Positions 1,337 to 25,139 of a stretch of 44,583 nucleotides of DNA are shown piece after piece; within the stretch, counting starts at the first letter, position 1; the number at the start of each line of letters is the position of its first letter. The translations under genes were made by a program, and so were the position numbers. The notes beneath the pieces were generated by a model. That model did not search any database. It saw only the letters and a program-made list of their open reading frames with translations, and had not been told where the DNA came from. Source of the DNA: an uncultured Erysipelotrichaceae bacterium (GTDB taxonomy: Bacteria; Bacillota_I; Bacilli_A; RF39; UBA660). The stretch lies in NCBI GenBank assembly GCA_902783435.1, contig CACZQV010000043.1:1-44583 (forward strand), in the 5' to 3' direction.

Positions 1337-1355
1337 TAAAATAGAGGTGTCGTAT

Positions 1356-4300
1356 ATGAGAAAAAGAAGAAAAAAGAAAAGTAATTTATTCTTACTTCTA
1401 TTATTAGTAATATGTGTAAGTATAGGTTATGCGTTAGTATCCACAACACTTAATATTACCGGTATAGCAGGTATTAATAAAAATACTTGGGATATACATT
1501 GGGATAGTGAAAGTGTAGTAGTATCTAATGGTAGTGTTAGTGCTACTAAACCAATTGTTTCTGGTACTAATGATGATACTGTTACATTTAGTGCTGATTT
1601 GGAATTACCAGGAGATTTTTTTGAATTTACAGTAGATGCGGTAAATGAAGGTACTGTAGATGGTGAAATAACAATAAAATCTAAGGGTATATATAATGTA
1701 AATGATGAAGAGTTGACTGGTGATAATCTACCAAGTTATATTAATTATACAGTTACTTATGCAGATAATGGTCTTGAACCATCTATTGGAGATATATTAG
1801 AAAAAAGAATAGATGAAAATACTCCTACTGCTAGAACTTATAAAGTAAGAGTAGAAATTGATCCGGATACTGAAGTATTACCTAGTAGTGATACTACGTA
1901 TAAATTTAAATATACAGTTACTTATGAACAACATAAGGAATCTACTCCTACTGGACCTTATACAGTTAATTTTAATCCAAATGGAGGTACAGTAGATACT
2001 ACATCAAAAGAGGTAGAAGCAAATGAAAAAATTGGTGAATTACCTGTTGCTGAAAAAGAAAATCAAGGATTTAGAGGTTGGTATACTGAAATTGATGGTG
2101 GAGAGAGACTTGGTAATAAATATATTGTTAATAAGAATCAAACAGTATATGCACATTGGAATGATATTCAAGCAAAATTTGATATAGGTAAAAATGTTAA
2201 TGCTAAGTTTAAAGGATTAGCTGGAGATGACGTTAGTGGTGATTACCCATGGGGTGTTTATGATACCAATATAACAGCAGTTAAACGTGCTTCTAGTGCA
2301 CCAGAGACAGGTACAATAACAGAAATAGTATCTGCTCCTGATAGTCCATCTGAAATCTATGCATGGTTTGATAATGGAACAATCTATTGGTGGAGTGAAG
2401 CAGGATCAGAATTCTTAAATGAAGATGCTTCAAATATGTTTAATAACATGAGTGCTCTAGTTGAATTTGAACCAACATTTGATACTTCTTTAACTACTAA
2501 CATGAGTTATATGCTATCATATTGTGGTTTTGAAACTGTAAATGTAAGTACATTTAATACAAGTAATGTTACTAATATGAGTTATATGTTCTATGGTAAT
2601 AGTAATTTAGTATCATTAGATTTAAGTCATTTTGATACTAGAAAAGTATCTAATATGAATTCTTTAGTTGGCTATAATAATAAGTTAGAAACACTAAATT
2701 TAGGTGGATTTAATTTTAGTAGTTATAATCCAGATCAATTAATGACTCAATTATGTGGTTATGGTGATATTAAAATAAAAACATTAATAATGGATGAAGC
2801 TGTATTTAATACTAATATGTATGGTACATTCTATGATCTTAAGAATTTAGAAAATATTTCATTAAAGAATGTTGATACAAGTCGTGCTACTACAATGTAT
2901 AAATTATTCTATAACTGTAGTAAATTAAAATCAGTAGACTTATCAGATTTTGATACAGAAAATGTTACTAATATGAGTCAAATGTTCTATTATTGTCAAG
3001 CTTTAGAGGATATTGATTTTGGTCATATTAATACGGGGACTGTTCATGAAATGAATCAAATGTTTTACTATTGTAGTAGTTTAACTTCATTAGATTTAAG
3101 TATGTTTGATACTAGTGAAACTTATCAAATGAATTATATGTTCACAAGTTGTAGTAATCTTGAATACTTAAATTTAAGTAATTGGGATTTTAGAAATAAT
3201 CATGCTTCTAATTTAATGGATACATTATTAGGATCTAATCAAGGAATTAAAACATTAATATTAGATAATACTAAGTATGGTGTATCAATGGATTCAGCAT
3301 TCTATAGTATGGATAATGTAGAAGAAATTAGTCTTAAGAATGTAGATACTTCTCATGTAGTAAATATGCGTCAATTATTTGGATATAATAGTAAATTAAA
3401 AGAATTGGATTTAGGTAGTTTTGATACTAGTAATGTTACTAATATGAGTTATATGTTTGCGGGATGTAGTTCTTTAACTACTATTTCTGTAAGTGATAAT
3501 TTTGTAGTAGATCAAGTTACTACTGATGAAAATATGTTTGATGATAATTATGTACTTGAAGGTGGTCAAGGTACTCCATATACTTCAGCACATAAGTTAA
3601 AGGATTATGCACATTATGATCATGGTGATAGTGATCCTGGTTATTTCGATAGAAGAGAAGGAACTACTTATACAGTTACATTAGATGCTAATGGTGGTGC
3701 TGTATCTCCTGCAAGTATATCTGTTAGAAAAGGTAGAAAAGTTGGTGAACTTCCAACTCCTACTTGGAAAAATCATATATTCTTAGGATGGCAATTAGTA
3801 ACTCCTGAAGTAACTCCAGTAGATTCTAATTATAGAGTTAATAGTAATGTTACTTTTGTAGCTACTTGGAGAGAAGCTGAGATATATACAATTACATTTG
3901 ATGCAAATGGAGGAGTAATTGATCCTAGTGATGTTACTAGACAAGTAGTTGAAGGTGAAGAAATAGGAACTCTACCAGTAGTAACAAGAGAAAATTGGTA
4001 TTTGGATTATTGGTATGTAGGTATAACAGATAGGACAGTAGTAAATGCTACATATAAACCAACAGGTAATATAACAGTTTATGCGTATTGGAGAGTTGAT
4101 GTTGATAAGATGCCTTATGAAGATCAACAAGAAGTATTAGAAAATGATACAGCATGTATAGACTTTAAACTTGGTGATACAAGGGGAACTGGTGCTAATA
4201 AAGTTAGAGTAGCTAATTGTTCTAAACCATTAGGTTGTAGTTTAGAAAAATATTCACAAACAGCTTGTGGTTTAGTTTATGAATATGTAGATGTTGTTAG

Positions 4301-4829
4301 CTTTACTTCAATTAATTCGTCTGATACTATCGTAGGTGGATATAAAGATAGTAATATAAGAAGTGTAATACAATCATTAGCTCCTGCTGAAGCAATACCA
4401 GTAAAAGTTGTATCTGGATATGATAGATATAATACTCAAAATATTATTACTTACGATAAAGCATATTTATTATCAGGAGTTGAAGTGTTTGGTGGTAATG
4501 CTGGTTATAATACAGGTGAACAATATCCACATGATACTACTGAAATGTATACTAGACAATTAGATATATATGCAACTCCAGCTTATAGAGATGGTGGAAA
4601 GATTGCTGCTAAACGTTATTATGGAACATTCCCACCTGATTTAAATCCTGGTCATTTCCCAGATCATATAGTACCATGGGCACTTCGTAATGTTGACTAT
4701 TACAACTCTAATGTCAATGGAATAGGAAAAGGTACATTTGGAAGTGTAACTGCAGGAAGCATACCAGAATATAGAGATTGGAGTGCTACTACATCAATTG
4801 GTGTATCCCCAGCATTTAGAATTGGTTAA
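1356..4829 (+). CDS. Giant BspA-like leucine-rich-repeat surface protein 1
   Basis: Large surface protein of 1157 aa, start chosen at ATG 1356 after GAGGTG; the in-frame GTG at 1347 overlaps that ribosome site. Order of parts: a Lys/Arg-rich N-terminus and one membrane segment (about residues 9-30) ending SIGYALVSTTLNITG; a beta-rich domain to about 195 containing ELPGDFFEFTVDAVNEGT, which resembles TasA/camelysin domains; one InlB/Flg_new-type repeat (about 202-267, FNPNGG...YAHW); BspA/DUF285 repeats (about 336-708, units like FDTSNVTNMSYMF); two more InlB-type repeats (about 772-913); and a DUF6273-like end (about 935-1157, ending SPAFRIG). Within the repeat block a longer, about 75-residue unit (LNLSNWDF...TLILDN...ISLKNVDTS) occurs twice. 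No LPxTG signal is present, so anchoring is probably through the N-terminal segment. A role in adhesion is inferred from the family. It has its own promoter and terminator and two paralogs in this window. Confidence 0.85.
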   Translation: MRKRRKKKSNLFLLLLLVICVSIGYALVSTTLNITGIAGINKNTWDIHWDSESVVVSNGSVSATKPIVSGTNDDTVTFSADLELPGDFFEFTVDAVNEGTVDGEITIKSKGIYNVNDEELTGDNLPSYINYTVTYADNGLEPSIGDILEKRIDENTPTARTYKVRVEIDPDTEVLPSSDTTYKFKYTVTYEQHKESTPTGPYTVNFNPNGGTVDTTSKEVEANEKIGELPVAEKENQGFRGWYTEIDGGERLGNKYIVNKNQTVYAHWNDIQAKFDIGKNVNAKFKGLAGDDVSGDYPWGVYDTNITAVKRASSAPETGTITEIVSAPDSPSEIYAWFDNGTIYWWSEAGSEFLNEDASNMFNNMSALVEFEPTFDTSLTTNMSYMLSYCGFETVNVSTFNTSNVTNMSYMFYGNSNLVSLDLSHFDTRKVSNMNSLVGYNNKLETLNLGGFNFSSYNPDQLMTQLCGYGDIKIKTLIMDEAVFNTNMYGTFYDLKNLENISLKNVDTSRATTMYKLFYNCSKLKSVDLSDFDTENVTNMSQMFYYCQALEDIDFGHINTGTVHEMNQMFYYCSSLTSLDLSMFDTSETYQMNYMFTSCSNLEYLNLSNWDFRNNHASNLMDTLLGSNQGIKTLILDNTKYGVSMDSAFYSMDNVEEISLKNVDTSHVVNMRQLFGYNSKLKELDLGSFDTSNVTNMSYMFAGCSSLTTISVSDNFVVDQVTTDENMFDDNYVLEGGQGTPYTSAHKLKDYAHYDHGDSDPGYFDRREGTTYTVTLDANGGAVSPASISVRKGRKVGELPTPTWKNHIFLGWQLVTPEVTPVDSNYRVNSNVTFVATWREAEIYTITFDANGGVIDPSDVTRQVVEGEEIGTLPVVTRENWYLDYWYVGITDRTVVNATYKPTGNITVYAYWRVDVDKMPYEDQQEVLENDTACIDFKLGDTRGTGANKVRVANCSKPLGCSLEKYSQTACGLVYEYVDVVSFTSINSSDTIVGGYKDSNIRSVIQSLAPAEAIPVKVVSGYDRYNTQNIITYDKAYLLSGVEVFGGNAGYNTGEQYPHDTTEMYTRQLDIYATPAYRDGGKIAAKRYYGTFPPDLNPGHFPDHIVPWALRNVDYYNSNVNGIGKGTFGSVTAGSIPEYRDWSATTSIGVSPAFRIG

Positions 4830-6315: not shown

Positions 6316-6498
6316 AGTCAGAGAGATGTATGCGGAGGACATATAAAACCGACAAATTAACGATACGGGAGTTCGGATCAGCTACTGGTGTTGAATGCCC
6401 GCTTGTTTGTGGGAATCCTAAAGGTAGCGTATGAACACCCACCTGATCATGGGATTAGGTTTTATCGTTCGCTTCCGGTGCACTCGTCTGACTTTTTT
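6316..6498 (+). ncRNA. ssrS: Probable 6S RNA
   Basis: A stretch with GC content well above its surroundings, without a convincing gene, about 180 nt long. It folds into one long hairpin. The closing helix is AGTCAGA (6316-6322) with TCTGACT (6487-6493), then GTATGC and GGAGG (6328-6338) with CTTCC...GTGCAC (6472-6483), then ATAAAACC (6343-6350) with GGTTTTAT (6458-6465). A large asymmetric central bubble follows, then GATCAG/CTGATC (6376-6381, 6443-6448), GGTGTT/AACACC (6387-6392, 6434-6439) and a CCCGC/GTGGG end hairpin. A closed stem, a central bubble and a terminal stem of this length match 6S RNA, which mimics an open promoter and binds sigma-A RNA polymerase. In Bacillus subtilis bsrA lies beside aspS and yrvM (tcdA); both genes are in this neighbourhood. 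The U-run after the closing stem would end transcription. Identification is from fold and synteny, not a covariance search. Confidence 0.7.
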
Positions 6499-6499
6499 G

Positions 6500-6528
6500 T
6501 TGCATTTTTTTTTTGTTTATGTTAGAAT
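6500..6528 (+). promoter_or_regulatory. Promoter of the 270-aa unknown gene
   Basis: TTGCAT (6500-6505), a 17-bp spacer, TAGAAT (6523-6528) with a TGn extension just before it. It starts in the U-run that follows the structured RNA. Confidence 0.65.
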
Positions 6529-6580
6529 AACGAATACGAAAAGGAAGACAAATAAATATTCATTGGGGGAGATGAGATAC

Positions 6581-7393
6581 ATGTTAATATTACCAATTGT
6601 TAACAAGAATCGTGTCATGAATGTTGAAATTAGATTAAAAAATGCATCTAAAGTGAGAAGTAGAATATATTCTGAAGATGTATCTGAAAGTGATATTATA
6701 GTAAATAGAGAAAAATTTTCTGATTCATTATTTAAAGAATCAAAAGATGAAGCGGCACCTACAGAATTTATTAGAAGTAGATCAATTCTTCATCCTAGAA
6801 ATTTTTTAGTAACAACAAAACAAGAAAACGATTCTAATTTATTCGATGTATATGAAGTAGCTCAACCTCCTAGAAAAGTGAATGATAGTTTAGATAAATT
6901 ATATGGAAAAGCAATCACTGATTTAAGAAAAGAAATACCAGGAGTAAAAAGTAGAGGAAGATATATATCATTTGAAAAATTAGGTTTAGATAAACATTTA
7001 ACAGAAGATAAAATAGCTTCTTTACAAAGAATAGTTAAAGATGAGAGAGATTCTTCTAGATGGCCTAAACTATTTCAAGAAGCTGGTATTGCTGATTTAG
7101 GAGATACAGTAGATTTTATAAATACATTTGAATGTACTTTATTATCTGATACATCTATAGCTGAAGATAGTTTAAAAGATACTATAAAACAATTAGAAGT
7201 TATTAATACTAAAGATTATAGAAATTTAAAAAACTATTATAAAATGGCAAAGACAAATACAGATATATATACAAAGATATCTTATATAAATAATATTATT
7301 AATGAAAAACCATTAACTTTAATTCATGCAAAACAAGAAGGACGTCAATATATTAAAAAGGACGGAAGAGTTGACTACAACAAAGCAGCATAA
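6581..7393 (+). CDS. Hypothetical protein between 6S RNA and tcdA
   Basis: 270 aa, not recognised. I chose ATG 6581 because GGGGGAG (6565-6571) sits about 9 nt before it; ATG 6572 would be directly on the ribosome site, and the frame further upstream runs through the structured RNA and is not coding. The protein is soluble, charged and mixed alpha/beta, with no membrane segment or signal peptide: LPIVNKNRVMNVEIRLKN at the N-terminus, a helical middle (about 95-185) and a helical C-terminus ending in a basic tail. Its last 23 bases overlap the chosen tcdA start, so the two are probably translationally coupled. Confidence 0.75.
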   Translation: MLILPIVNKNRVMNVEIRLKNASKVRSRIYSEDVSESDIIVNREKFSDSLFKESKDEAAPTEFIRSRSILHPRNFLVTTKQENDSNLFDVYEVAQPPRKVNDSLDKLYGKAITDLRKEIPGVKSRGRYISFEKLGLDKHLTEDKIASLQRIVKDERDSSRWPKLFQEAGIADLGDTVDFINTFECTLLSDTSIAEDSLKDTIKQLEVINTKDYRNLKNYYKMAKTNTDIYTKISYINNIINEKPLTLIHAKQEGRQYIKKDGRVDYNKAA

Positions 7394-8077: not shown

Positions 8078-9232
8078 ATGGAAAAACTTGATGTTATTAA
8101 AACATTTTTATATGAAACAATACCAGATATGGTTGATTGTGAATGTAATTTGGATTTTATTAAATTTTTATTTAAGAAAGAAGATATAGAAAAGCTAGAA
8201 AATATAGTTATTAACTATAATAATAGTAATAATATAAATGAAGCTAGTAAAATAATGGGGTTTAATTCTATTAATTTATTATATGAAACTAATGAAAATC
8301 CTAGTGATACAGTTATTAGAATTAATAATTTTGATGAGTTCTTTGATACTATGACACTTATATTTGATGCATGTGGTGAGAAAAAACAATTAGCTAATGA
8401 GTTTATTAGAAGTGTATGGTTAAGAATGGGTGTAGAAGATTTAAATAATGTTGAGATGTTTTTAAAAAGACAATTAGAATTTCTAAAAAATGATACTTGT
8501 ATTTATTATGATTATTATAGAGATGATAATATATCTATAGCTTGTATTGGTTCTAAAAATCCTGAGTTTTTTGAAACTAATAGTTATGCAAGATTTATAG
8601 TAACTGATGATGATTTAAATAAATATAGATTTCCTGTAGTCCATTATGGAATTAGTAAAGAAAATAATAATCCAGTATGTTATGTATATGGAGTACAAAA
8701 TGCACATACTAAGAATGAAGATATTGAAGAAATAGATAAATTTTTAAAACCAGTAAAAAAAGGTTTAAGAAATAAATATGTATCTAAAGACTTTGTTTTA
8801 ACTTTAGGTATGTTTTTAGATATGATGTATGAAAGAGGAATAGAGGAAATAAGAATTCCTTTACTTCAAGTTTTTAATTATGAATATCATGAAAAATTAT
8901 CTACAGTATTAGATCTTTTATATAATGTGTATGATGATGAAGAAAAAGAAAAATTAGAAGATGATTATATTAAAGGTATAAGAAATAAAAAAATAAATGA
9001 TTACATTGATAAAAAACTTATATATCATAGATTCTTCGGAAAAGAAGATATTATTAGTTATAATAAGACTGAGAGATTTATAAATACATTTATGGTATTA
9101 AATGATGTATTTGATAATATAGAAATATGTAATGAACCTTTTATTCAAGGTGATGAATTAATTGTTAAAATAAAAAAGTCTACTAATATAAGAGAAAAAT
9201 TAAATGAAAAAAATAAAGAGTATTCTAAATAA
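8078..9232 (+). CDS. Hypothetical protein downstream of tcdA
   Basis: 384 aa, not recognised. Acidic, soluble, no signal peptide or membrane helix. The N-terminal 100 residues are helical with Asn-rich linkers; the centre (about 150-215) has strand-like stretches (CIYYDYYRDDNISIACIGS, FPVVHYGISKENNNPVCYVYGVQ), followed by a helical region and a C-terminal Lys-rich tail. The start has AAGGA 5-9 nt upstream and begins 5 bp after tcdA, so it is the last gene of that operon, which ends in a shared terminator. No catalytic signature is visible. Confidence 0.75.
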   Translation: MEKLDVIKTFLYETIPDMVDCECNLDFIKFLFKKEDIEKLENIVINYNNSNNINEASKIMGFNSINLLYETNENPSDTVIRINNFDEFFDTMTLIFDACGEKKQLANEFIRSVWLRMGVEDLNNVEMFLKRQLEFLKNDTCIYYDYYRDDNISIACIGSKNPEFFETNSYARFIVTDDDLNKYRFPVVHYGISKENNNPVCYVYGVQNAHTKNEDIEEIDKFLKPVKKGLRNKYVSKDFVLTLGMFLDMMYERGIEEIRIPLLQVFNYEYHEKLSTVLDLLYNVYDDEEKEKLEDDYIKGIRNKKINDYIDKKLIYHRFFGKEDIISYNKTERFINTFMVLNDVFDNIEICNEPFIQGDELIVKIKKSTNIREKLNEKNKEYSK

Positions 9233-9247: not shown

Positions 9248-9865
9248 TTATAATTTTCTATATAATCCTATTGCTTTACCTAATATTGTACATTCTTTTA
9301 ATATAATAGGTTCCATTGTATCATTTTCAGGTTGTAGTCTAAAATATCCATCTTCTTTATAAAATGTTTTAACTGTTACTTCATTATCAGAATTCATAGC
9401 AACTACTGTTTCACCATTTCTAGCGGTATTTCTTCTTTCTACTATTAATATATCTCCATCATATATTCCTACATTGATCATTGATTCTCCACTTACTTTA
9501 AGTGTAAATACTTCTTCTTTATTAGGAATAAGATTTGCGGGTAGTGAGAAGTATTCATCTGGAGTTTCAATTGCTTCTATTGGAGTACCTGCAGTTACTT
9601 TACCAAGTAATGGTACATCTACAACATTATCATCTTGTTGTAGATATTCATTTGGTACTAATATTTCTAGTGTTCTATTTTTATTATCATCTTTTTTGAT
9701 GTATCCTTTTTCTTCAAGTTTCTTTAAATGAAAGTGAATTGTGGCAGGAGAAGATAAATTTGCTTCTTCACCAATTTCTCTTACAGTAGGTGGATAACCG
9801 TTTTTAGCAACTAATTTTTTTAATGCTTCTAGTATCTTACTTTGTCCTCTGGTTAGTTTTTCCAT
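9248..9865 (-). CDS. lexA: SOS repressor LexA
   Basis: 205-aa repressor of the DNA-damage response. N-terminal winged helix (about 1-65; recognition region SSPATIHFHLKKLEEKGY), linker, and a self-cleaving C-terminal peptidase domain. The cleavage site is Ala92-Gly93 (VTAG), the catalytic Ser is Ser128 (SGESM) and the Lys is Lys166 (VTVKTF), all present, so RecA-stimulated autoproteolysis is expected. Ribosome site AAGGAGTGAT 4 nt before ATG. Its promoter (9890-9918) overlaps a LexA box (9916-9929), which predicts autorepression. It is transcribed away from a small membrane-protein gene, as lexA/yneA are in Bacillus. Confidence 0.97.
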   Translation of the reverse strand: MEKLTRGQSKILEALKKLVAKNGYPPTVREIGEEANLSSPATIHFHLKKLEEKGYIKKDDNKNRTLEILVPNEYLQQDDNVVDVPLLGKVTAGTPIEAIETPDEYFSLPANLIPNKEEVFTLKVSGESMINVGIYDGDILIVERRNTARNGETVVAMNSDNEVTVKTFYKEDGYFRLQPENDTMEPIILKECTILGKAIGLYRKL

Positions 9866-9889
9866 ATAATCACTCCTTCTTATAAATTT

Positions 9890-9918
9890 ATATTAACACT
9901 AAAAATGTAAAATGTCAA
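9890..9918 (-). promoter_or_regulatory. lexA promoter
   Basis: On the minus strand: consensus TTGACA (9913-9918), a 17-bp spacer, TAATAT (9890-9895). The -35 box overlaps LexA box 1. Confidence 0.8.
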
Positions 9919-9929
9919 ACAAATGTTTT
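9916..9929. promoter_or_regulatory. LexA box 1 (lexA operator)
   Basis: CAAACAAATGTTTT matches 12 of 14 positions of the Gram-positive SOS box CGAACRNRYGTTYG and is nearly palindromic. It covers the start of the lexA -35 box. Confidence 0.75.
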
Positions 9930-9938
9930 AATTAGTTA

Positions 9939-9967
9939 TTGACACGAACAGATATTCGATATATACT
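9939..9967 (+). promoter_or_regulatory. SOS promoter of the small membrane protein
   Basis: Consensus TTGACA (9939-9944), 17 bp, TATACT (9962-9967). The spacer is occupied by LexA box 2. Confidence 0.85.
9945..9958. promoter_or_regulatory. LexA box 2
   Basis: CGAACAGATATTCG matches 13 of 14 positions of CGAACRNRYGTTYG and sits exactly between the -35 and -10 boxes, where bound LexA would block polymerase. Confidence 0.85.
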
Positions 9968-9997
9968 AGACTTATCAAGAGAAAGGAGAGGATATTT

Positions 9998-10147
9998 ATG
10001 ATGAATATTGTTAAGAAAGGATTAGTTATATTAGGTATATATGGAATATTTACCGCTTATTTATTATTCGCAAGTAACAGAATTGAAAGACTTGATAATA
10101 ATGATGATACAGAAATAGTAAATGTCTCATTAAAGTTTAGTGAATAG
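9998..10147 (+). CDS. Small single-pass membrane protein under LexA control, candidate division inhibitor
   Basis: 49 aa, read from ATG 9998 with a strong AAAGGAGAGG site upstream. A short basic start (NIVKK), one hydrophobic helix (about residues 8-25, GLVILGIYGIFTAYLLFA), and a 24-residue acidic tail (RIERLDNNDDTEIVNVSLKF) predicted to lie outside. There is no LysM domain, unlike Bacillus YneA; size and plan are closer to Staphylococcus SosA and Caulobacter SidA, which are small SOS-induced membrane proteins that stop septation. Divergent from lexA and preceded by a LexA box in its promoter spacer, so damage induction is well supported; the division-inhibitor role is inferred from context. 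No hairpin terminator before the polA promoter. Confidence 0.8.
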   Translation: MMNIVKKGLVILGIYGIFTAYLLFASNRIERLDNNDDTEIVNVSLKFSE

Positions 10148-10157
10148 TATTAATTTA

Positions 10158-10166
10158 TGGTATACT
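10158..10166 (+). promoter_or_regulatory. Extended -10 promoter of polA
   Basis: TGGTATACT (TGn plus TATACT), 17 bp before the polA ATG, leaving a leader of roughly 10 nt that consists mainly of the AGGTGAT site. Confidence 0.5.
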
Positions 10167-10183: not shown

Positions 10184-12793
10184 ATGAAAAAGATTATTCT
10201 TGTAGATGGTAATAATTTATTATTTAGAAGTTTCTATGCAACTGCATACCAAGGTGTTATCATGAAAAATTCTAAAGGTTTTCCAACTAATGCTTTATAT
10301 GGCTTTATTAATATGATGAATAAAATAATATCTGAAGAAAAACCTAATTATATATTAGTAGCATTTGATAAAGGAAAAACCTTTAGACATGATAAATATA
10401 AAGATTATAAAGCAGGACGTGCTGCAATGCCTGATGAATTAAAACTACAATTTCCTAAAGCTAAAGAAGTACTAGAAACTATGGGTATTAAATACTTTGA
10501 AATTGATAATTATGAAGCAGATGACATAATCGGAACTTTAGCTAAAGTAGTAGATGAAGAAGATGAATTTATTGGGACAATAATTAGTAGTGATAAGGAC
10601 TTACTTCAATTAATAAGTGATGAAATAGACGTTAAGCTATTAAAACAATCTGGTCATATAATGATGGATAAGAATGAGTTTAGAAAGACTTATGGTGTAG
10701 ATCCTATTAGAATGATAGATTTAAAAGCACTTATGGGAGATTCTTCTGATAATATTCCAGGTGTTAAAGGAATAGGTGAAAAGACTGCGATTAATTTACT
10801 TACTAAGTATGGTAGTTTAGATGGAGTATATGAAAATATAGATTCTATTACAGGTAAGACTAAAGAAAAACTAGAATTAGATAAAGAAAATGCTTATAAG
10901 AGTTTTGATTTAGCGACAATTTACCGAGAAGTACCTTTAGATTTTACTTTAGATGATTGTGTATATACTGGATATAGACCTGAAGAGTTTAAGAAGGAAT
11001 TAGAAGAATTAGAGTTTTTCTCACTATTAAAAAAGCTTGATTTTAGTGGAGTAGAAGAAGTAAAAGAAGAGAAGAAGAAAGAAGAAAAGCTTACTATAAA
11101 AGATATTAAAGATTTTAAAGAAAAAGAGTTTTCATTTTATTTAGAAACAAGAGGAGAAGTTTATAGTAAGAGTGAAATATTAGGAATGGGTATTTATGAT
11201 GGAGAGTGTGGATACTTTATTTCAAAAGATGATATTTCAAAATACAAAGATATATTTTCTAGTGATATAGAAAAATATACTTATGATTTAAAAAAGAATA
11301 TTGTAGTACTTAATAATTTAAATATTAAAATTAATAAATGTAGTTTTGATACTATGATAGGTACATATTTACTTGATTATGTAGTTAAAGACGATATTAG
11401 TTTTGTAGCGAGAAGTTTTGATGCGGATTTTCCTAGTTATGAAGATTTATATGGAACTGTTAAACGTCCTAAAGAAGTAGAAGAAGATGTATTAAAAGAT
11501 ATATTAGTTAGAAAAGCTAAGTTTATTTACGAAACAAGAGAAGAAATTCTTAAAAAATTAGAAGAAGATGGAGAGTTAGATTTATTTAATAAAATAGAAA
11601 TGCCTTTAACTTCTGTACTTGCCGATATGGAGTTAGAAGGTATTAAAGTAGATGTAGATTATTTGTCCTTAGTAGAACAAGAATTAAAGAAAAAAATGGA
11701 AGAAGTAGAGAAATCTATTTATAAGAGTGCAGGATGTGAGTTTAATATTATGAGTCCAGCACAACTTGCGAAAGTATTATTTGAAGATTTAGGTATTAAA
11801 TATCCTAAAAGAGTAAAAGATAATAAGTATTCTACTAGTAAAGATATTTTAGATAAAATTGTATTAGATCATGAAGTAGTACCATTAGTTTTAGAATATC
11901 GTACACTAGCTAAATTATATACAAACTATGCAGTAGGTTTAAAAGATGAAGTTAGAGAAGATGGTAGAATACATACTATATTTACTCAAACTTTAACTCG
12001 TACTGGAAGACTTTCTAGTATTAGTCCTAATCTTCAAAATATACCAGCACGTTCAGAATACTCTGAACTTATTAGAAAAGCATTTATTCCAGATAGTGAT
12101 AGTGTATTACTATCAAGTGATTATTCACAAGTAGAGTTAAGAATATTTGCACATATGTCAGGTGAGAAAAATTTAATTCAAGCATTTATTGATAATAAAG
12201 ATATACATGCGAAGACTGCATCTGATATATTCCATGTTAGTGAAGAAGAAGTTACTAAAAATATGAGACGTAATGCTAAAGCAGTTAATTTTGGTATTTT
12301 ATATGGAATTAGTAGTTTTGGTTTATCAGAAGATTTAGGAATAAATGTAAAAGATGCAAAGAAGTTTATTGATGATTATTTAGAAACTTATCCTGGAATT
12401 CAAGAATATATGGAAAAAGAAAAAGCAGAAGCTTATAAGAATGGTTATGTTAGAACTTTAATGAATCGTAAGAGAGTTATTGAAGAATTAAATAATAAAA
12501 ATTATATGATTAGAAGTAGTGGAGAGAGAATGGCTCTTAATACTCCTATTCAAGGTACTGCGGCTGATATTTTAAAGAAAGCTATGGTAGAAATATACAA
12601 CGAATTTAATAAACGTAATTTGAAAAGTAAAATGTTAATCCAAGTACACGATGAATTAGTATTTAATGTATTAAATTCAGAGTTAGAAGAAGTTAAAACT
12701 ATAGTTAGAGATATAATGGAAAATACATTTAAGTTAGATGTACCATTAAAAGTAGACATAGAATATGGTAATAATTGGTATGAAGCAAAGTAG
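10184..12793 (+). CDS. polA: DNA polymerase I
   Basis: 869-aa repair and Okazaki-fragment-processing polymerase. N-terminal 5' nuclease (about 1-290) with DGNNLLFRSFYAT, EADDIIG and SSDKDLLQL acidic motifs and the helix-hairpin-helix GDSSDNIPGVKGIGEKTA; a middle exonuclease-fold domain (about 295-460); and the polymerase with motif A SDYSQVELR, motif B RRNAKAVNFGILYG and motif C QVHDELV. In the middle domain the DxE metal-binding pair is absent (FYLETRGE instead), so proofreading is probably lost, as in Bacillus PolI. It starts after GTAGGTGAT and is followed 8 bp later by mutM, a repair operon immediately downstream of the LexA-controlled gene. Confidence 0.97.
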   Translation: MKKIILVDGNNLLFRSFYATAYQGVIMKNSKGFPTNALYGFINMMNKIISEEKPNYILVAFDKGKTFRHDKYKDYKAGRAAMPDELKLQFPKAKEVLETMGIKYFEIDNYEADDIIGTLAKVVDEEDEFIGTIISSDKDLLQLISDEIDVKLLKQSGHIMMDKNEFRKTYGVDPIRMIDLKALMGDSSDNIPGVKGIGEKTAINLLTKYGSLDGVYENIDSITGKTKEKLELDKENAYKSFDLATIYREVPLDFTLDDCVYTGYRPEEFKKELEELEFFSLLKKLDFSGVEEVKEEKKKEEKLTIKDIKDFKEKEFSFYLETRGEVYSKSEILGMGIYDGECGYFISKDDISKYKDIFSSDIEKYTYDLKKNIVVLNNLNIKINKCSFDTMIGTYLLDYVVKDDISFVARSFDADFPSYEDLYGTVKRPKEVEEDVLKDILVRKAKFIYETREEILKKLEEDGELDLFNKIEMPLTSVLADMELEGIKVDVDYLSLVEQELKKKMEEVEKSIYKSAGCEFNIMSPAQLAKVLFEDLGIKYPKRVKDNKYSTSKDILDKIVLDHEVVPLVLEYRTLAKLYTNYAVGLKDEVREDGRIHTIFTQTLTRTGRLSSISPNLQNIPARSEYSELIRKAFIPDSDSVLLSSDYSQVELRIFAHMSGEKNLIQAFIDNKDIHAKTASDIFHVSEEEVTKNMRRNAKAVNFGILYGISSFGLSEDLGINVKDAKKFIDDYLETYPGIQEYMEKEKAEAYKNGYVRTLMNRKRVIEELNNKNYMIRSSGERMALNTPIQGTAADILKKAMVEIYNEFNKRNLKSKMLIQVHDELVFNVLNSELEEVKTIVRDIMENTFKLDVPLKVDIEYGNNWYEAK

Positions 12794-12801
12794 GTGATGG
12801 T

Positions 12802-13623
12802 ATGCCTGAAAAACCAGAAGTAATTACTGTAGTTAATAGTTTAAAGAATCAAATTATTGGTAAAAAAATAGTAGGATGCAATATATATTGGGACAATATT
12901 ATTGCTTATCCTACTGTTAATGAGTTTAAAAAAGAAATTATTAATGAAGTAATAAGAGATATTACTACTCGTGGTAAATTTATTGTAATGGAACTTAATA
13001 AATATTCATTACTTGTACATCTTAGAATGGAAGGTAAGTTTTTCTTTAGAAAAAAAGGAGAACCAATTACTAAGCATGAGCATGTAGAATTAATATTTGA
13101 TGATAATACTAGTTTTAGATATCATGATACTAGGAAATTTGGTAAGATGTATTTAATTCCTATAGAAGAAACTTATAAAGTTAAACCTTTATCTGAATTA
13201 GGATTAGAATATGATGATTCTAATCTTACTAAAGATTATTTATATAATAAAATACATAATAAAAGTTTACCAATAAAAACAGTTTTACTTGATCAAAGTA
13301 TAATTACTGGAATTGGTAATATTTATGATGATGAAATATTATTTATGAGTGGTATTAATCCTAATAGAAAATCTTGTGATATTACTAAGAATGAATGTGA
13401 TAAGATAATTAATAATACTCGTGAAGTACTTAATAAAGCTATTAAGTTAGGTGGTACTACAATTAAGTCATTTACATCAAGTGAAGGAGTACATGGGCTT
13501 TTTCAAAATGAATTATTAGTTCATGGTAAAAGTGGTAGTTCTTGTCCAGTATGTGGATGTATAATAGAAAAAACAAGAATTGGTGGACGTGGTACTAGTT
13601 TTTGTAGTAAATGTCAGAAATAA
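12802..13623 (+). CDS. mutM: Formamidopyrimidine-DNA glycosylase
   Basis: 273-aa base-excision enzyme that removes oxidised purines such as 8-oxoguanine and cuts the abasic site. The catalytic Pro2 and Glu3 are present (MPEKPEV; relatives usually read MPELPEV, so Lys4 is unusual). HLRMEGKF carries the conserved Lys, the H2TH region has GIGNIYDDEILF, and the C-terminal zinc finger is CPVCG...FCSKCQ. The start has TAGGTGATGGT directly upstream, in the 8-bp gap after polA, so the two are co-transcribed. A terminator follows at 13672. Confidence 0.95.
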   Translation: MPEKPEVITVVNSLKNQIIGKKIVGCNIYWDNIIAYPTVNEFKKEIINEVIRDITTRGKFIVMELNKYSLLVHLRMEGKFFFRKKGEPITKHEHVELIFDDNTSFRYHDTRKFGKMYLIPIEETYKVKPLSELGLEYDDSNLTKDYLYNKIHNKSLPIKTVLLDQSIITGIGNIYDDEILFMSGINPNRKSCDITKNECDKIINNTREVLNKAIKLGGTTIKSFTSSEGVHGLFQNELLVHGKSGSSCPVCGCIIEKTRIGGRGTSFCSKCQK

Positions 13624-17205: not shown

Positions 17206-18282
17206 ATGAAAGCTTTAATTGTTGCGGGTGGAACTGGAGGACATATATATCCAGCCTTAGCTATTATTAATAAAATAAAAGAGAAGGAACCTAATAGTAA
17301 ATTTTTATATATTGGGACAACAGATAGAATGGAAAAGGATATTATTCCTAAATTAAATATTCCATATGTAGGTATTCCAATGAAAGGGTTAAATAGAAAA
17401 AATGTTTTTTCTAATTTTTCTGTTATAAAGAAGTTTAGTGAAGCTGTGAAGAAAGCAGGAAATGAGATTGATAAGTTTAAACCTGATGTAGTTATTGGAG
17501 CTGGTGGTTATATTACTGCACCTGTTTTATATGCTGCGCATAAAAGACATATTCCAATACTTATTCATGAACAAAATTCTATACCTGGAGTATCTAATAA
17601 GTTTATTAGTAATTTTGCAGATAAGATATGTGTATCACTTCCAAATAGTTTAAATTTATTTCCTAAAAATAAAACAGTTTATACTGGTAATCCTCGTAGT
17701 GAAGAGATTATTTCAGTTAGAAAGAAAAATAAAAAGAGTTTAGGATTTGATGAAAATAAAAAATTAGTTGTTTTTGTCATGGGTAGTTTAGGTAGTACTA
17801 CTATGACAGAAAAATTAAAGGAATTAATTCCAAGTTTTTCTAATAAAAATTATCAAGTATTAGTTATCACTGGTAATAAGTATTATGATGATTATAAGGA
17901 TATAGAAGTTAGTGATAATGTTAAGATTGTTCCTTTTATGGATGATTTAATTAATTATTTAAAAGATACTGATTTAATAGTATCTCGTGCTGGTGCTTCT
18001 ACTATAGCAGAGATTACAGCTATAGGACTTCCTGCAATATTAGTACCAAGTCCATATGTTACTAATAATCATCAATATAAGAATGCTAAAGAATTAGAAG
18101 ATAATGGTGCTTGTGTAATAGTGGAAGAAAAGGATTTTGATAAGGATACTATTATACGTGAAATAGATAAGATATTTGATGATAAAGAATCTTATTTAAA
18201 CATGGTAGAAAATAGTAAAAAATTAGGAATTGTTGACTCTGCTTCTAGAATATATGATGAGGCTAGAAAGATAATTGGGTGA
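17206..18282 (+). CDS. murG: UDP-GlcNAc:lipid I GlcNAc transferase
   Basis: 358-aa GT-B enzyme at the inner face of the membrane that turns lipid I into lipid II. The N-terminal glycine loop VAGGTGGHIYPALAI, the second loop GAGGYITAPVLYAA and HEQNSIPGVSNK in the acceptor half, and the UDP-GlcNAc-binding stretch SRAGASTIAEITAIGLPAILVPSPYVTNNHQ in the C-terminal half are all intact. Start has AGTGGAGTGAT upstream. First gene of the murG-murB-ftsQ unit; the next start is 4 bp after its TGA stop. Confidence 0.97.
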   Translation: MKALIVAGGTGGHIYPALAIINKIKEKEPNSKFLYIGTTDRMEKDIIPKLNIPYVGIPMKGLNRKNVFSNFSVIKKFSEAVKKAGNEIDKFKPDVVIGAGGYITAPVLYAAHKRHIPILIHEQNSIPGVSNKFISNFADKICVSLPNSLNLFPKNKTVYTGNPRSEEIISVRKKNKKSLGFDENKKLVVFVMGSLGSTTMTEKLKELIPSFSNKNYQVLVITGNKYYDDYKDIEVSDNVKIVPFMDDLINYLKDTDLIVSRAGASTIAEITAIGLPAILVPSPYVTNNHQYKNAKELEDNGACVIVEEKDFDKDTIIREIDKIFDDKESYLNMVENSKKLGIVDSASRIYDEARKIIG

Positions 18283-18286
18283 TATT

Positions 18287-19198
18287 ATGAATGATGAGTT
18301 GGTTCGTAAAATTAGAAATTTAAATATAGGTAAAGTAGAAGATAATGTTTTATTAAGTAAATATACAACATATCGTGTTGGAGGACCTGCGATATGTGTG
18401 ATTTATCCTAAAAATGTTACATGTTTAGTTAAATTGTTAAGGTTTTTAAAAAATGATAATGTTATGTATAAATTACTTGGTAATGGATCTAATTTACTAT
18501 TTAGTGATAAACCATATAATGGTGTTTTAATTAAGTTAGATGAGTTTAATAATATTGAATTCTTAGGTAAGAATAAAATTAGAGTAGGTGCAGGAGTATC
18601 TTTAATTAAACTTAGTTTATTAACAGCTAAGAAAGGACTTACTGGTCTTGAGTTTGCATCAGGTATACCTGGTAGTGTAGGTGGAGCTGTATTTATGAAT
18701 GCAGGAGCTTATAAATCAGATATGGGTTACATTGTAGAAAAGGTTAAAGTTTTAACACCTGATTTAAAAATAATTTATTTAGAAAATAAAGAGATGGATT
18801 TTCACTATAGAACATCTTATCTTCAAAAACATAGAAATTTTATTTGTTTAGAAGTAGTATTAAAGCTTCAAAAAGGAAGTCGTGAAGCAATAGAGGGAGT
18901 TATCCGTGAAAGACGCAAAAGAAGATTAGAATCTCAACCATTAGAATATCCTAGTGCAGGATCAGTTTTCCGTAATCCTGAAGGGGACTTTGCGGGAAGA
19001 CTTGTAGAAGAAGCAGGACTTAAAGGTATGGTTCATGGTGGAGCTATGATTAGTGATAAACATGCTAATTTTGTGGTTAATTATAAAAAAGCAAGTGCAG
19101 AAGATGTAAAATATTTAATAGATTTATGTCATGATACTGTTAAAGAAAAATATAATGTTAATTTAAAATGTGAACAAGAATTTGTTAATTGGGAGTAA
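18287..19198 (+). CDS. murB: UDP-N-acetylenolpyruvoylglucosamine reductase
   Basis: 303-aa FAD enzyme that reduces UDP-GlcNAc-enolpyruvate to UDP-MurNAc with NADPH. FAD-binding NTerm TTYRVGGPA and LGNGSNLLFSD, GIPGSVGGAVFMNAGAY, the YRTS loop, and the C-terminal SAGSVFRNP with the proton-donor Ser, plus a late Glu (KCEQEFVNWE). Start chosen at ATG 18287 with GGGTGATATT before it; a TTG-type upstream extension would overlap murG. Tightly packed between murG and ftsQ. Confidence 0.97.
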   Translation: MNDELVRKIRNLNIGKVEDNVLLSKYTTYRVGGPAICVIYPKNVTCLVKLLRFLKNDNVMYKLLGNGSNLLFSDKPYNGVLIKLDEFNNIEFLGKNKIRVGAGVSLIKLSLLTAKKGLTGLEFASGIPGSVGGAVFMNAGAYKSDMGYIVEKVKVLTPDLKIIYLENKEMDFHYRTSYLQKHRNFICLEVVLKLQKGSREAIEGVIRERRKRRLESQPLEYPSAGSVFRNPEGDFAGRLVEEAGLKGMVHGGAMISDKHANFVVNYKKASAEDVKYLIDLCHDTVKEKYNVNLKCEQEFVNWE

Positions 19199-19202
19199 TA
19201 AT

Positions 19203-19892
19203 ATGCCTAAAAAAATAGTCAAAAAAAGAAAATTAAAACTATTTAATTTTTTCATAGTTCTTTTAGTTTTAACTGGACTATTTTTTGGTGTGTATTTTGT
19301 ATTACAAATAAGAGTTAAAAATTTAATTGTTAAAAATACTAATTATTTAAATGACGATTATGTACTAGAACTTTCTGGGTTAAAGAATTATCCTAAGTTT
19401 TTTGTTGTTAATAATTATAAAGTTGAAAAGAAACTTAGAAGTTCTAAATATATTAATAATGCTAAATTACATAGAAATTTACCATTTACTTTTGTATTAG
19501 AAATAGATGAAAATAAACCATTATTTTATGATATGAATAAAAGTAAATATGTTTTAAGTAATAAGGAAGAAGTAAAAGATGAAGAAATTAGTCATAATTT
19601 TAGAGTACCTAGACTTCTTAATTATGTACCTGATAAAAAATATTCTAAGTTTATTAAAGGTATGAATAGAGTAGATAAAGGTGTCTTAGTTAAAATAAGT
19701 GATATAGAGTATCAACCTAATGATTATGATAAAGATAGATTTTTACTTTATATGGATGATGGTAATATGGTATATCTTACTTTAACTAAGTTTAAGATGA
19801 TTAATCATTATAATGAAGTTTTAAAACAACTTGAAAATCATAAAGGTATATTATATTTAGATAATGGTAATCATTTCCAAATAAAAGAGTAG
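19203..19892 (+). CDS. ftsQ: Cell-division protein FtsQ/DivIB
   Basis: 229-aa bitopic divisome protein. A very basic cytoplasmic start (KKIVKKRKLK), one membrane helix (about 12-33, FNFFIVLLVLTGLFFGVYFVL), then a POTRA domain (RVKNLIVKNTNYLNDDYVLELSGL) and a beta domain with a short tail. FtsQ/DivIB links early and late division proteins, with FtsL and FtsB, which are not in this window. ATG 19203 has GGGAG upstream and starts 4 bp after murB. The stop lies in a terminator that closes the operon, so in this genome ftsQ is not co-transcribed with ftsA. Confidence 0.9.
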   Translation: MPKKIVKKRKLKLFNFFIVLLVLTGLFFGVYFVLQIRVKNLIVKNTNYLNDDYVLELSGLKNYPKFFVVNNYKVEKKLRSSKYINNAKLHRNLPFTFVLEIDENKPLFYDMNKSKYVLSNKEEVKDEEISHNFRVPRLLNYVPDKKYSKFIKGMNRVDKGVLVKISDIEYQPNDYDKDRFLLYMDDGNMVYLTLTKFKMINHYNEVLKQLENHKGILYLDNGNHFQIKE

Positions 19893-19905
19893 TAATACTC
19901 TTTTT
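19883..19905 (+). terminator. Terminator of murG-murB-ftsQ
   Basis: AAAAGAGTA pairs with TACTCTTTT around a GTAA loop, followed by T-rich sequence; it overlaps the ftsQ stop. Confidence 0.8.
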
Positions 19906-19910
19906 CTTTA

Positions 19911-19919
19911 TGTTATAAT
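19911..19919 (+). promoter_or_regulatory. Extended -10 promoter of the GT-C-like pair
   Basis: TGTTATAAT, 17 bp before the ATG at 19936, right after a terminator. Confidence 0.6.
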
Positions 19920-19935
19920 TCTTATAGGTGATAAG

Positions 19936-21249
19936 ATGAAAAAAATATTTAAATATATAGTTTTATTTGTTTTAATATTACTTTTTAGTCTCATTATAAA
20001 TCCTTTAAATTTAGATGAAATATGGAGTTATGGTTTTACTAATAATATTTATAATGGTCTTATTCCATATAAAGATTTTAATATGGTTATTACTCCATTT
20101 TATCCATTTATTATGTCTTTAATATTTTATATATTTGGAAATAATATGTTAGTTTTTTATATAGAAAATACTTTGATTATAATTTTATTTATTTATATAT
20201 GTAGTAAATTATTAAATGATAAAACTTATTTAATATTACCATTATTAATATTTCCTATTAGTATAGTTTTCCCTAATTATAATTTCTTTTTATTATTTTT
20301 ATTTATTTTATTAATATATTTAGAAAAGAATAATAAAAATGATTATTTAATAGGATTTATATTATCTTTTATATTTTTAACTAAACAAACTGTAGGTATT
20401 AGTTTATTATTAGTATCTTTATATTATTTAAAAGATAAGAAGCTATTTAAAAGATTTATAGGTTTTATTATTCCTAATATAATATTTATAATATATTTAT
20501 TTATTACTAATAGTTATCGTGAATTTATAGATTTATGTTTTTTAGGTTTATTTGATTTTGGTAAGAGTAATACTAATGTATTTAATATGTTTTTCTTTAT
20601 GATAATTGTTTTATTAATTATATTAGTTAAAATGATAAAAAAAGATTCTAAGAAAATAGAATATTATTATTTATTAATGTTTATTAGTATATGTATTCCT
20701 TTATTTGATTTATATCATTTTAGTATATATTTAGTTAGTTTTATTATTATTTGTTTAAGTAATGGTAAGCGTATATTTAATTATAAAATAATTGGTTTAA
20801 GTTTATTTGTTGGTTTTTCTTTAATTTATATTTATCATAGTGATTTTGATTATAGATTTTATCCTAATGATATAAATTTATTTGAGTATAGATATATTTC
20901 ATCTAAAAATATTAAATATACTAAAAAGATTTTAAAATATTGTGATAAATATAATAATAAAGTTATGTTTATTGGACCTAATGCTTATTATTATAAATTG
21001 ATTCAAGGTAAAAGAATTGGATATTTAGATTTAATTAATAAAGGTAATTGGGGTTATGATGGATCTAGTAAATTAATTAAAAAGGTTAAGTCTTTAGATA
21101 AAAATTATGTTTTTTTTGTAGCTAACGATGAATTGGGTTTTGGAAAACAAACAGATCAAAACTTAATAAAATATATAATTAAGAATGGAAATAAAATAGA
21201 TAGAGTAGGAAAATATGATATATATAGGTTAGGTGATATAGATGGTTAA
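19936..21249 (+). CDS. Polytopic GT-C-like glycosyltransferase 1
   Basis: 437 aa with about 9-10 membrane helices in the first 300 residues and a soluble C-terminal domain (about 310-437). The first outer loop has LDEIWSYGFTNNI followed by GLIPYKDFNMVITP, the layout of GT-C (GT39/ArnT/PMT-like) enzymes in which a loop-1 acidic DE is catalytic. These enzymes move sugars from lipid-linked donors onto proteins, lipids or polymers; donor and acceptor cannot be read here. RBS TAGGTGATAAG. Its last 8 bases overlap the start of a paralog. Position between ftsQ and ftsA suggests a wall-related role (inference). It could instead be another polytopic enzyme of that fold. Confidence 0.75.
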   Translation: MKKIFKYIVLFVLILLFSLIINPLNLDEIWSYGFTNNIYNGLIPYKDFNMVITPFYPFIMSLIFYIFGNNMLVFYIENTLIIILFIYICSKLLNDKTYLILPLLIFPISIVFPNYNFFLLFLFILLIYLEKNNKNDYLIGFILSFIFLTKQTVGISLLLVSLYYLKDKKLFKRFIGFIIPNIIFIIYLFITNSYREFIDLCFLGLFDFGKSNTNVFNMFFFMIIVLLIILVKMIKKDSKKIEYYYLLMFISICIPLFDLYHFSIYLVSFIIICLSNGKRIFNYKIIGLSLFVGFSLIYIYHSDFDYRFYPNDINLFEYRYISSKNIKYTKKILKYCDKYNNKVMFIGPNAYYYKLIQGKRIGYLDLINKGNWGYDGSSKLIKKVKSLDKNYVFFVANDELGFGKQTDQNLIKYIIKNGNKIDRVGKYDIYRLGDIDG

Positions 21250-22579
21250 ATTTATTAAGAATAATTATCATTATTTTATATTATTTATATTTATATTTTT
21301 TGTGTATTCTATTCTTTTGTTTCCAAATAATTATGGTGATCCTTTAAATAATTATGGATTTAGTTATGCGATTACAAGGGGTGAATTTCCTTATTTAGAT
21401 TTTAATACTATTTCTACACCTTTATATAGTTTTGTGATGAGTATAGGTTTGTTTATATGGAATAATTATTCTATGTTTTTATTAGAACAAACTATTTTAG
21501 TTACTATAATGTTTTATTTGTTAAATAAGTTATATGGAAAAAAAGCATATATACTTTTACTTGGAATATTTTTATTAGGTGGTTATGGGATAAATGCTAC
21601 TTATAATTTTTTTGCTTTTTTCTTAATGATAGTATTATTGTTTTTAGAGAAAAAGTATTCTGATAAAGATTATTTAATAGGGGTAGTTATAGGTCTTTCT
21701 ATTTTAGCTAAACATACAGTAGGAGTATTATTTATAATACCTAGTTTAATTTATTATTTTAAAAATAAAAATAAATTATTAAAAAGATTTATTGGTTTAT
21801 TAGAAGTAGGAATATTATTTATTATTTATTTATTATTAACTAATAGTTTTATGAAATTTATAGATTTGTGTTTTTTAGGTTTATTTGATTTTTCATCTAA
21901 GAATGGACGTTTGTTTAATATGTGGTTTTTTCTAACTATTGTGGTATTTATTATTAGTTTAATTATTACAATAAGAAATAGAAAAGATATTTCTAATTAT
22001 TATTTATTAATGGGAATAAGTTTTGTTTTACCTTTATTTGATTTATGTCATTTTTCTATATGTTTTTTATGTATTTTAATACAATTATTACCATATATTA
22101 AAAAGTATGAGAATTATTTTGGTAATCTTTCATTTATATTATCAATTATAATTTGTGTTGGATTATATATTAATTATTATGATACATATAAACCTATATT
22201 TAATAAGAAAATAAAACATTTTGAATATATACAAAATGGTAATTATAATTATTTGATGACTACTAAGTATTTTGATTTTTTTGATAAGTATGATAACAAA
22301 TTATTAATATCTTACGCTAAGATGCATTATGATATTTCTAGGAATAATAATATAGATTATTTTGATGTTTTAATGTATGGTAATTATGGATATAATGGAA
22401 GTAGTAAGATGATTAAAAGAATAGAAAAGATGAAAGATACTTATATTATTTTAGATAAGAGGGGTTATTTAGATAAGAGTTATGTTTCTCAGTTTGATAA
22501 GGGTGTTGCGGAGTATATAATTAATAATTATAAAAAAGTTGATGAGAAGTATGATTTTCTTATATATTATAAAGATTAA
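21242..22579 (+). CDS. Polytopic GT-C-like glycosyltransferase 2 (paralog)
   Basis: 445 aa, paralog of the preceding gene throughout: shared FIDLCFLGLFDF, the same helix pattern, FPYLDFNTISTPLYSF matching IPYKDFNMVITPFYPF, and a similar C-terminal domain with GYNGSSKMIKRI (partner GYDGSSKLIKKV). In the first outer loop the partner's LDEIWSYGF is replaced by YGDPLNNYGF, so the Glu of the DE pair is missing and the acidic residue is displaced. It may have a different activity or act as an accessory subunit. Start has AGGTGATATAG and overlaps the first gene by 8 bp, so they are translationally coupled. A terminator-like hairpin follows. Confidence 0.75.
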   Translation: MVKFIKNNYHYFILFIFIFFVYSILLFPNNYGDPLNNYGFSYAITRGEFPYLDFNTISTPLYSFVMSIGLFIWNNYSMFLLEQTILVTIMFYLLNKLYGKKAYILLLGIFLLGGYGINATYNFFAFFLMIVLLFLEKKYSDKDYLIGVVIGLSILAKHTVGVLFIIPSLIYYFKNKNKLLKRFIGLLEVGILFIIYLLLTNSFMKFIDLCFLGLFDFSSKNGRLFNMWFFLTIVVFIISLIITIRNRKDISNYYLLMGISFVLPLFDLCHFSICFLCILIQLLPYIKKYENYFGNLSFILSIIICVGLYINYYDTYKPIFNKKIKHFEYIQNGNYNYLMTTKYFDFFDKYDNKLLISYAKMHYDISRNNNIDYFDVLMYGNYGYNGSSKMIKRIEKMKDTYIILDKRGYLDKSYVSQFDKGVAEYIINNYKKVDEKYDFLIYYKD

Positions 22580-22614
22580 AATAAAGATTGATTAGTTTTT
22601 TCTTTATTTTTTTT
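22578..22614 (+). terminator. Weak terminator before ftsA
   Basis: AAAATAAAGA pairs with TCTTTATTTT around a 13-nt loop, followed by T; AT-rich and weaker than the others. Confidence 0.5.
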
Positions 22615-22625
22615 TAATTCAATAG

Positions 22626-22631
22626 TATAAT
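22626..22631 (+). promoter_or_regulatory. Candidate -10 box of ftsA-ftsZ
   Basis: TATAAT 25 bp before the ftsA ATG, with no convincing -35. Confidence 0.4.
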
Positions 22632-22655
22632 TAAATTTGAAGATAGGAGGATATT

Positions 22656-23891: not shown

Positions 23892-23907
23892 TTAAGGAGG
23901 AATAGGT

Positions 23908-25071: not shown

Positions 25072-25106
25072 AAAAAAGTAATGAAGATAATTCATTGCTT
25101 TTTTTA
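25072..25106 (+). terminator. Terminator of ftsA-ftsZ
   Basis: AAAAAGTAATGAA pairs with TTCATTGCTTTTT (one G-U). The 3' arm holds the TTGCTT -35 box of the next gene. Confidence 0.8.
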
Positions 25107-25123
25107 TTAATTATTTTTAAAAT
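25095..25123 (+). promoter_or_regulatory. Promoter of surface protein gene 2
   Basis: TTGCTT (25095-25100), 17 bp, TAAAAT (25118-25123), overlapping the ftsZ terminator as in the other two surface-protein genes. Confidence 0.55.
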
Positions 25124-25139
25124 TATATTAGGTGATAAT

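Follow-up and report, generated by a model that had tools for sequence, protein, structure and literature searches.

The SOS-induced membrane proteins described so far as inhibitors of cell division come from a few cultured genera. SidA, a very small inhibitor of this kind from the proteobacterium Caulobacter, sets a precedent for function without a LysM domain, and, to our knowledge, its gene does not lie beside lexA. That of ChiZ, from Mycobacterium and hence from another phylum than the window described here, is found near lexA. The available accounts describe ChiZ as an SOS-induced membrane division inhibitor with a LysM domain (PMC6851548, PMC13396833), and SidA is also discussed in the latter. 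SosA of Staphylococcus, YneA of Bacillus and others adjoin lexA (PMC6851548). The helix of YneA, which is SOS-induced and has a single transmembrane (TM) helix, is reported to bind TM7 of FtsW, and the LysM domain is needed, the protein being inactive without it; AF3 models, stated in the same account not to be of high confidence, put SosA, ChiZ and SidA on FtsW too (PMC13396833). YneA is, moreover, digested by CtpA (PMC6051672). SosA, as it is described, is transcribed divergently from lexA under LexA control, and has one N-terminal TM segment, an extracellular C-terminus and a conserved patch directly following the membrane segment; the description includes no LysM domain. Residues just outside the membrane are needed for its activity; loss of the last 10 residues makes it more abundant and more active, whereas a cut of 30 residues (from 77 to 47 aa) leaves it inactive; turnover is controlled by the very end of the C-terminus and is thought by the authors to involve CtpA (PMC6851548).

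The window (the whole stretch of DNA analysed here, 44,583 nt) contains a locus of comparable plan, the features of which are as follows:

9248..9865, minus strand: lexA, encoding 205 aa (Pfam LexA_DNA_bind and Peptidase_S24)
9890..9918, minus strand: lexA promoter, assigned by eye, with −35 TTGACA (9918–9913), a 17-bp spacer and a weak −10 TAATAT (9895–9890)
9916..9929: predicted LexA box 1, proximal to lexA, CAAACAAATGTTTT
9939..9967, plus strand: promoter of the small gene, with TTGACA (9939–9944), a 17-bp spacer and TATACT (9962–9967)
9945..9958: predicted LexA box 2, in the promoter spacer, CGAACAGATATTCG
9998..10147, plus strand: gene for a 49-aa, predicted single-pass membrane protein, ATG start with AAGGAG upstream
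10158..10166, plus strand: extended −10 of polA, TGGTATACT
10184..12793, plus strand: polA, confirmed by Pfam

The small ORF, divergent from lexA, translates as MMNIVKKGLVILGIYGIFTAYLLFASNRIERLDNNDDTEIVNVSLKFSE, and the next ORF after polA (12802–13623) is presumably mutM. Box 2 agrees at 13 of 14 positions with the Bacillus LexA box consensus, CGAACRNRYGTTYG, and at 9 of 10 with CGAACN4GTTCG; box 1, which starts 29 bp away, agrees with the former at 12 of 14 positions and has 3 bp in common with the −35 of lexA. The sequence-only reading had proposed exactly this arrangement, with one box filling the spacer of a TTGACA-17-TATACT promoter and a second overlapping the lexA −35, and it is borne out. 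Taken by itself, however, the window would leave the boxes unproven, since the 10-base pattern, with up to two mismatches allowed, matches it twice and does so at least as often in 52 of 100 shuffles. We accept the boxes as real because they are conserved across the loci of relatives.

A LexA scan of genome contigs yielded at least 582 relatives, and the analysis used the 80 best loci among them; these come from uncultured or metagenome-assembled genomes, titled Bacilli, Bacillales, Bacillota, Erysipelotrichaceae, Firmicutes, Tenericutes, Clostridia, Clostridiales or just bacterium. Beside lexA, 75 of these best 80 loci carry a divergent ORF that encodes a single hydrophobic segment, and in all 75 the best promoter carries the best box in its −35/−10 spacer. 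The box starts directly after the −35 in 67 loci and one base to either side in the other 8; the spacer is 17 bp in 67, and the Shine–Dalgarno sequence is kept along with the promoter layout. Within this set, the boxes match 7–9 of the 10 pattern positions but never all 10, whereas 10/10 boxes do occur farther out in the order. The starts of the distal and proximal boxes are separated by 27–30 bp in 66 loci and by 38–39 bp in 9, with nothing between, a jump of about one turn of DNA, and 69 of the 75 have TGTCAAA at their proximal box. When the 44.6 kb were scanned with a matrix of 42 unique boxes (the distal boxes of the relatives together with the window's own), the two boxes of the lexA locus ranked first and second, at 17.1 and 13.9 bits, the next site scoring 9.8. 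Sites of at least 13.5 bits occur at ∼0.001 per kb in 742 kb from the 75 loci, lexA and its upstream 700 bp being excluded.

The same matrix, in the training of which recA had no part, finds a box of 13.9–16.5 bits located 77–90 nt upstream of recA in all 10 genomes scanned, both with and without the small-gene cassette. Boxes are also seen at the genes for Y-family polymerases in G001, G002 and G005 (in G004, the box falls within the called ORF, close to the 5′ end), and one precedes ruvA in both G005 and G007; the sites examined are a subset of the matches to a stricter pattern (40 regions) rather than the full regulon. Palindromes matching at 9 of 10 positions are few in each genome, with 3–6 matches against 10–20 per strand for the reversed-pattern control, and had first suggested a minimal SOS regulon. 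That idea was dropped when the matrix gave the recA, ruvA and polymerase boxes, and ‘minimal’, if the sequence-only reading meant the regulon by it, does not hold in the relatives. For the small gene itself, there is strong computational evidence of control by LexA. Elsewhere, good boxes (18.1 bits each) lie 42 and 23 nt, respectively, before genes in L195 (985–998) and L204 (1239–1252), the products of which look by eye like phage or antirepressor-type proteins.

The encoded protein is 46–62 aa long in the relatives, with starts chosen by Shine–Dalgarno score (L021 excepted), and can be divided into a basic N-terminus (residues 1–7), a TM segment (approximately residues 8–26) that includes Tyr15, a juxtamembrane motif R28-x3-L32-D33, an acidic linker and a C-terminal tail. 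In the 75 sequences compared (the window and 74 loci, L021 being left out), Tyr15 is invariant, Arg28 and Leu32 are each present in 74 (the exception being L076), and position 33 is always Glu, Asp or Asn. In all 28 disjoint pairs (50–98% identity) drawn from this set, pN is lower than pS, with a pooled ratio of 0.33; the sequence-only reading, which a frame not conserved in relatives would have refuted, withstands this check of its own in 75 of 80 loci. The AF2 model is a single helix spanning residues 2–48, confident to about residue 30, with mean pLDDT values for successive ten-residue blocks of 91, 97, 92, 66 and 54. The N-terminal side is more positive than the C-terminal side in 37 of 43 near and 18 of 20 distant non-redundant proteins and, by the positive-inside rule, this bias leads to a predicted single TM helix oriented N-in/C-out, in keeping with the single-pass protein of the sequence-only reading; ∼22 residues would lie outside the membrane and ∼7 would face the cytoplasm. 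A conserved face of the TM helix is suggested by the alignment, albeit with weak periodicity (p = 0.019 for residues 7–27, 0.08 for residues 7–33 and 0.19 for residues 4–33).

Database searches place the protein in no named family. The window protein has no match in NCBIfam at E ≤ 1 and none in PHROG, and its two Pfam matches (E-values of 0.13 and 0.18) fall far under the cut-offs and do not include LysM; other members give scattered single matches, the best with an E-value of 0.0025. LysM is likewise absent among the families matched by the 56 members scanned, as the sequence-only reading had it for the window protein. Model NF010723 (PRK14125), which we take to be that for YneA, is not among the 22 NCBIfam families matched by any of these members and does not match the small ORF of G010, nor did the NCBIfam search match any family named for SosA. 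When 5.8 billion proteins were searched with a profile, 75 predicted homologues emerged from 449 candidates; none of the 75 has a precomputed Pfam domain and only one carries a name, ‘hypothetical protein’, in a database that shows names for only about a quarter of its proteins. The expectation that so short a gene would be missed by annotation is therefore half right: gene callers do predict it, but it almost always goes unnamed. The family is probably new; with SosA and SidA, it was compared by plan.

With the SOS division inhibitors that adjoin lexA, this family has in common the divergent lexA neighbour, the LexA-box promoter and the single predicted N-in/C-out TM segment. Compared with the 77 aa of SosA, the window protein is shorter (49 aa), especially in its outside part; R-x3-L-[D/E] forms the conserved patch, and polA is the gene downstream. 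It is about half as long as YneA and has no counterpart of the LysM domain that YneA is reported to need. The proposed likeness to lexA/yneA, with a closer approach to SosA, therefore stands for the plan of the locus, but no link to YneA in sequence was found. Among the top-ranked papers of the open-access literature, no lexA-linked division inhibitor is described for these bacteria.

The explanation that we favour, and judge to be fairly probable, is that LexA represses, and the SOS response induces, the 49-aa protein as a membrane-bound inhibitor of division that acts in the manner of SosA and YneA but belongs to a separate family; the inhibitory function is inferred by analogy. LexA bound at 9945–9958 would cover the −35/−10 spacer and repress the small gene, whereas the second box, 29 bp away, would serve autoregulation of lexA. 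On DNA damage, RecA would trigger the cleavage of LexA, and the conserved N-in/C-out single-helix protein would accumulate. One face of its helix (Gly/Ala8, Tyr15 and Ser/Thr/Cys26), together with R28-x3-L32-D/E33, may then bind a septal peptidoglycan synthase, most likely FtsW, such that septation stalls; the short C-terminal tail could be the handle by which an S41 (CtpA-type) protease removes the protein once repair is done. Some transcription continuing from the small gene into polA would, in addition, bring about a partial SOS induction of DNA polymerase I. The assignment of the helix and R-x3-L-[D/E] to inhibition, and of the tail to turnover, follows the analogy with SosA and YneA.

Several observations count for a division inhibitor. 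The window encodes proteins with MurG (as we interpret the glycosyltransferase-28 matches), MurB, FtsQ-type POTRA, FtsA and FtsZ domains. SEDS matches are found in 10 of 10 relatives (22 in total); 10 of these proteins, from six genomes, were scanned, and the top-scoring model was FtsW or SpoVE for seven and RodA for three, with one or more of the seven in every one of the six genomes. An S41 protease domain is present above the cut-off in 10 of 10 relatives, although it is weak and partial in G003, which lacks the cassette. Other observations count against it: only ∼22 residues lie outside the membrane, the link in sequence to YneA is missing, the periodicity of the TM face is weak, 5 of the 80 loci have no such gene, the S41 match of G003 is partial, and only three of the ten scanned SEDS proteins (SpoVE-like) exceed the FtsW cut-off. 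Given the inactivity described for YneA without LysM and for SosA cut to 47 aa, the protein is near or below the size that suffices in those two. The division and cell-wall cluster itself runs from 17206 to 25050, in the order MurG-like, MurB, FtsQ-type POTRA, two ORFs of 437 and 445 aa (19936–22579) with no Pfam match at E ≤ 1e-5, then FtsA and FtsZ.

The association with polA introduces a different possibility, namely that the protein is linked to the membrane and modulates either DNA repair or the SOS response, acting, for example, on LexA, RecA or PolA, and is for that reason kept near lexA and polA. It does adjoin lexA in 75 of 80 loci, and polA follows the stop codon of the small ORF after 36 nt in the window, with no terminator seen in the gap, and after at most 120 nt in 64 of 74 loci (a set without L039, which has no polA in its locus). 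A crude scan, limited to the first 200 nt of gaps of 400 nt or more, found a terminator-like hairpin in 5 of the 74 gaps. Given these short gaps and few hairpins, the SOS read-through into polA that the favoured explanation includes is plausible, although polA also has its own extended −10. Against a modulator, polA is in the fetched flank of only 3 of 30 lexA loci from the order at large, so that the linkage characterizes the window's clade and, outside it, the unit persists without polA. Moreover, conservation is strongest within the TM helix and immediately beyond it, outside the membrane, with ∼7 residues in the cytoplasm, and polA stays in the five loci from which the unit is gone. We, therefore, regard a modulator of this type as rather unlikely. 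In L004, L009, L016 and L017, the gap to polA is ∼160 nt and contains an inverted repeat recognized by eye, AAATCCAGAT...ATCTGGTGGAGGAGGA; the inserts of L004 and L016 match no riboswitch, or any other Rfam family, at the gathering threshold.

In the five loci just mentioned (L023, L024, L027, L031 and L032), the small ORF, the distal box and the promoter are jointly absent, while the proximal lexA box is kept at 13.1–13.9 bits and no second box of such strength is present; a TATACT-type −10 precedes polA, with an insert between the two in L031. On a FastTree phylogeny of PolA (80 rows, comprising the window and 79 loci, without L039), they occupy three separate positions, and the branches with good support require a minimum of three changes. 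As loci with the cassette surround them on this tree, its loss is the simplest reading. A search with A1, an alignment of the window protein with those from 55 of the 75 loci (the 20 left out being mostly near-duplicates, and also L021), detected a single copy, located at lexA, in every one of five genomes with the cassette and no copy in the five whole genomes lacking it, the completeness of which is not stated. A partial look for a replacement SOS membrane gene, in 40 regions around pattern sites in eight genomes, gave nothing convincing; 27 of these regions are from genomes without the cassette, G001 (6), G002 (7), G004 (7) and G005 (7), with none from G003, and 13 are from G006, G007, G009 and G010.

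Across the order to which G010 belongs, A1 gives 58 matches in 193 genomes (E ≤ 0.001), at least three of them apparently by chance in long or broken frames, and a LexA domain is found in 185 of the 193. At the 30 best LexA places of this order, two boxes of at least 11 bits are present in 29 and a small hydrophobic ORF in 28, one of which (L244) is doubtful. The A1 search had reported nothing at 21 of these 28 places, and most of the 21 ORFs lack R-x3-L; L224 and L227 retain it and L218 has R-x3-V, which suggests that some of these distant ORFs are probably diverged relatives. Tails and charges were compared for 24 of the 28 loci, leaving out three clade members (L238, L243 and L245) and L244. 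Of the non-redundant proteins, 19 of the 20 distant ones and 17 of the 43 near ones have the pattern hydrophobic-x-hydrophobic-Asn within the last nine residues, against averages of 2.8 and 3.6, respectively, in shuffled tails; counts this high did not arise in any of 2000 shuffles, the test being post hoc as the pattern was picked after the sequences had been viewed. The tail of the window protein itself does not fit this pattern.

Such strong sequence turnover would also suit a membrane-active peptide of the SOS-induced TisB type, which would slow growth through membrane depolarization and not through contact with a component of the divisome, and the protein is indeed small, hydrophobic and apparently SOS-controlled. 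Nevertheless, the near-invariant residues of the clade (the TM tyrosine followed by R-x3-L) and the acidic outside tail suggest a protein partner, and the gene adjoins lexA, as do those of SosA, YneA and others; we consider this reading unlikely. Less credible again is that the ORF is a leader, or an upstream cis-element, that tunes the expression of polA and gives no working protein. The stop codon 36 nt before polA and the absence of a visible terminator are compatible with such a role, but the amino acid sequence is under purifying selection, a small hydrophobic ORF is kept in the order where polA is not adjacent, and the −10 of polA outlives the cassette; mainly on the last two grounds, we consider it very improbable. 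Finally, a chance ORF in an AT-rich intergenic region, to which its mere 49 codons and the lack of NCBIfam, PHROG and above-cut-off Pfam matches might have pointed, is ruled out by the pN/pS ratio of 0.33 and the synteny in 75 of 80 loci, with promoter layout and Shine–Dalgarno sequence kept, and the small gene is confirmed as real.

If the protein is a division inhibitor, as we favour, this kind of SOS brake would extend to a large group known here only as uncultured genomes; a protein smaller than YneA and without the domain that YneA needs could be used to probe the minimum required to halt a divisome, and the apparent natural losses and order-wide sequence turnover make up a comparative data set. 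A broader reading, which we put forward tentatively and think doubtful as a whole, is that lexA, the two boxes and the small gene form a fixed cassette throughout this order of Bacilli, encoding a division brake of 42–62 aa that needs no domain for binding peptidoglycan and shifts in sequence yet acts on FtsW through its helix and patch and offers its tail to a protease, with polA co-raised in the window's clade. The plan, almost all that would survive the sequence turnover in distant members, would be a basic end, one helix, a charged linker and, mostly, the hydrophobic-x-hydrophobic-Asn tail; in the polA-linked clade, a single transcript would then join ‘stop dividing’ to ‘fill gaps’.

Elsewhere in the window, a 6S RNA (RF00013, 52.2 bits) on the plus strand at 6317–6493 overlaps the called start of the ORF at 6431–7393, the true start of which is, therefore, probably further downstream. 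An ORF of 384 aa (8078–9232), downstream of a ThiF-family gene, has no Pfam match over the cut-off; among the 80 loci searched with tblastn, relatives are found only in L013 and L017, at 35–39% identity. Three large proteins with DUF285 and Listeria–Bacteroides repeats, encoded at 1347–4829, 25095–29384 and 39814–43812, are probably surface proteins.
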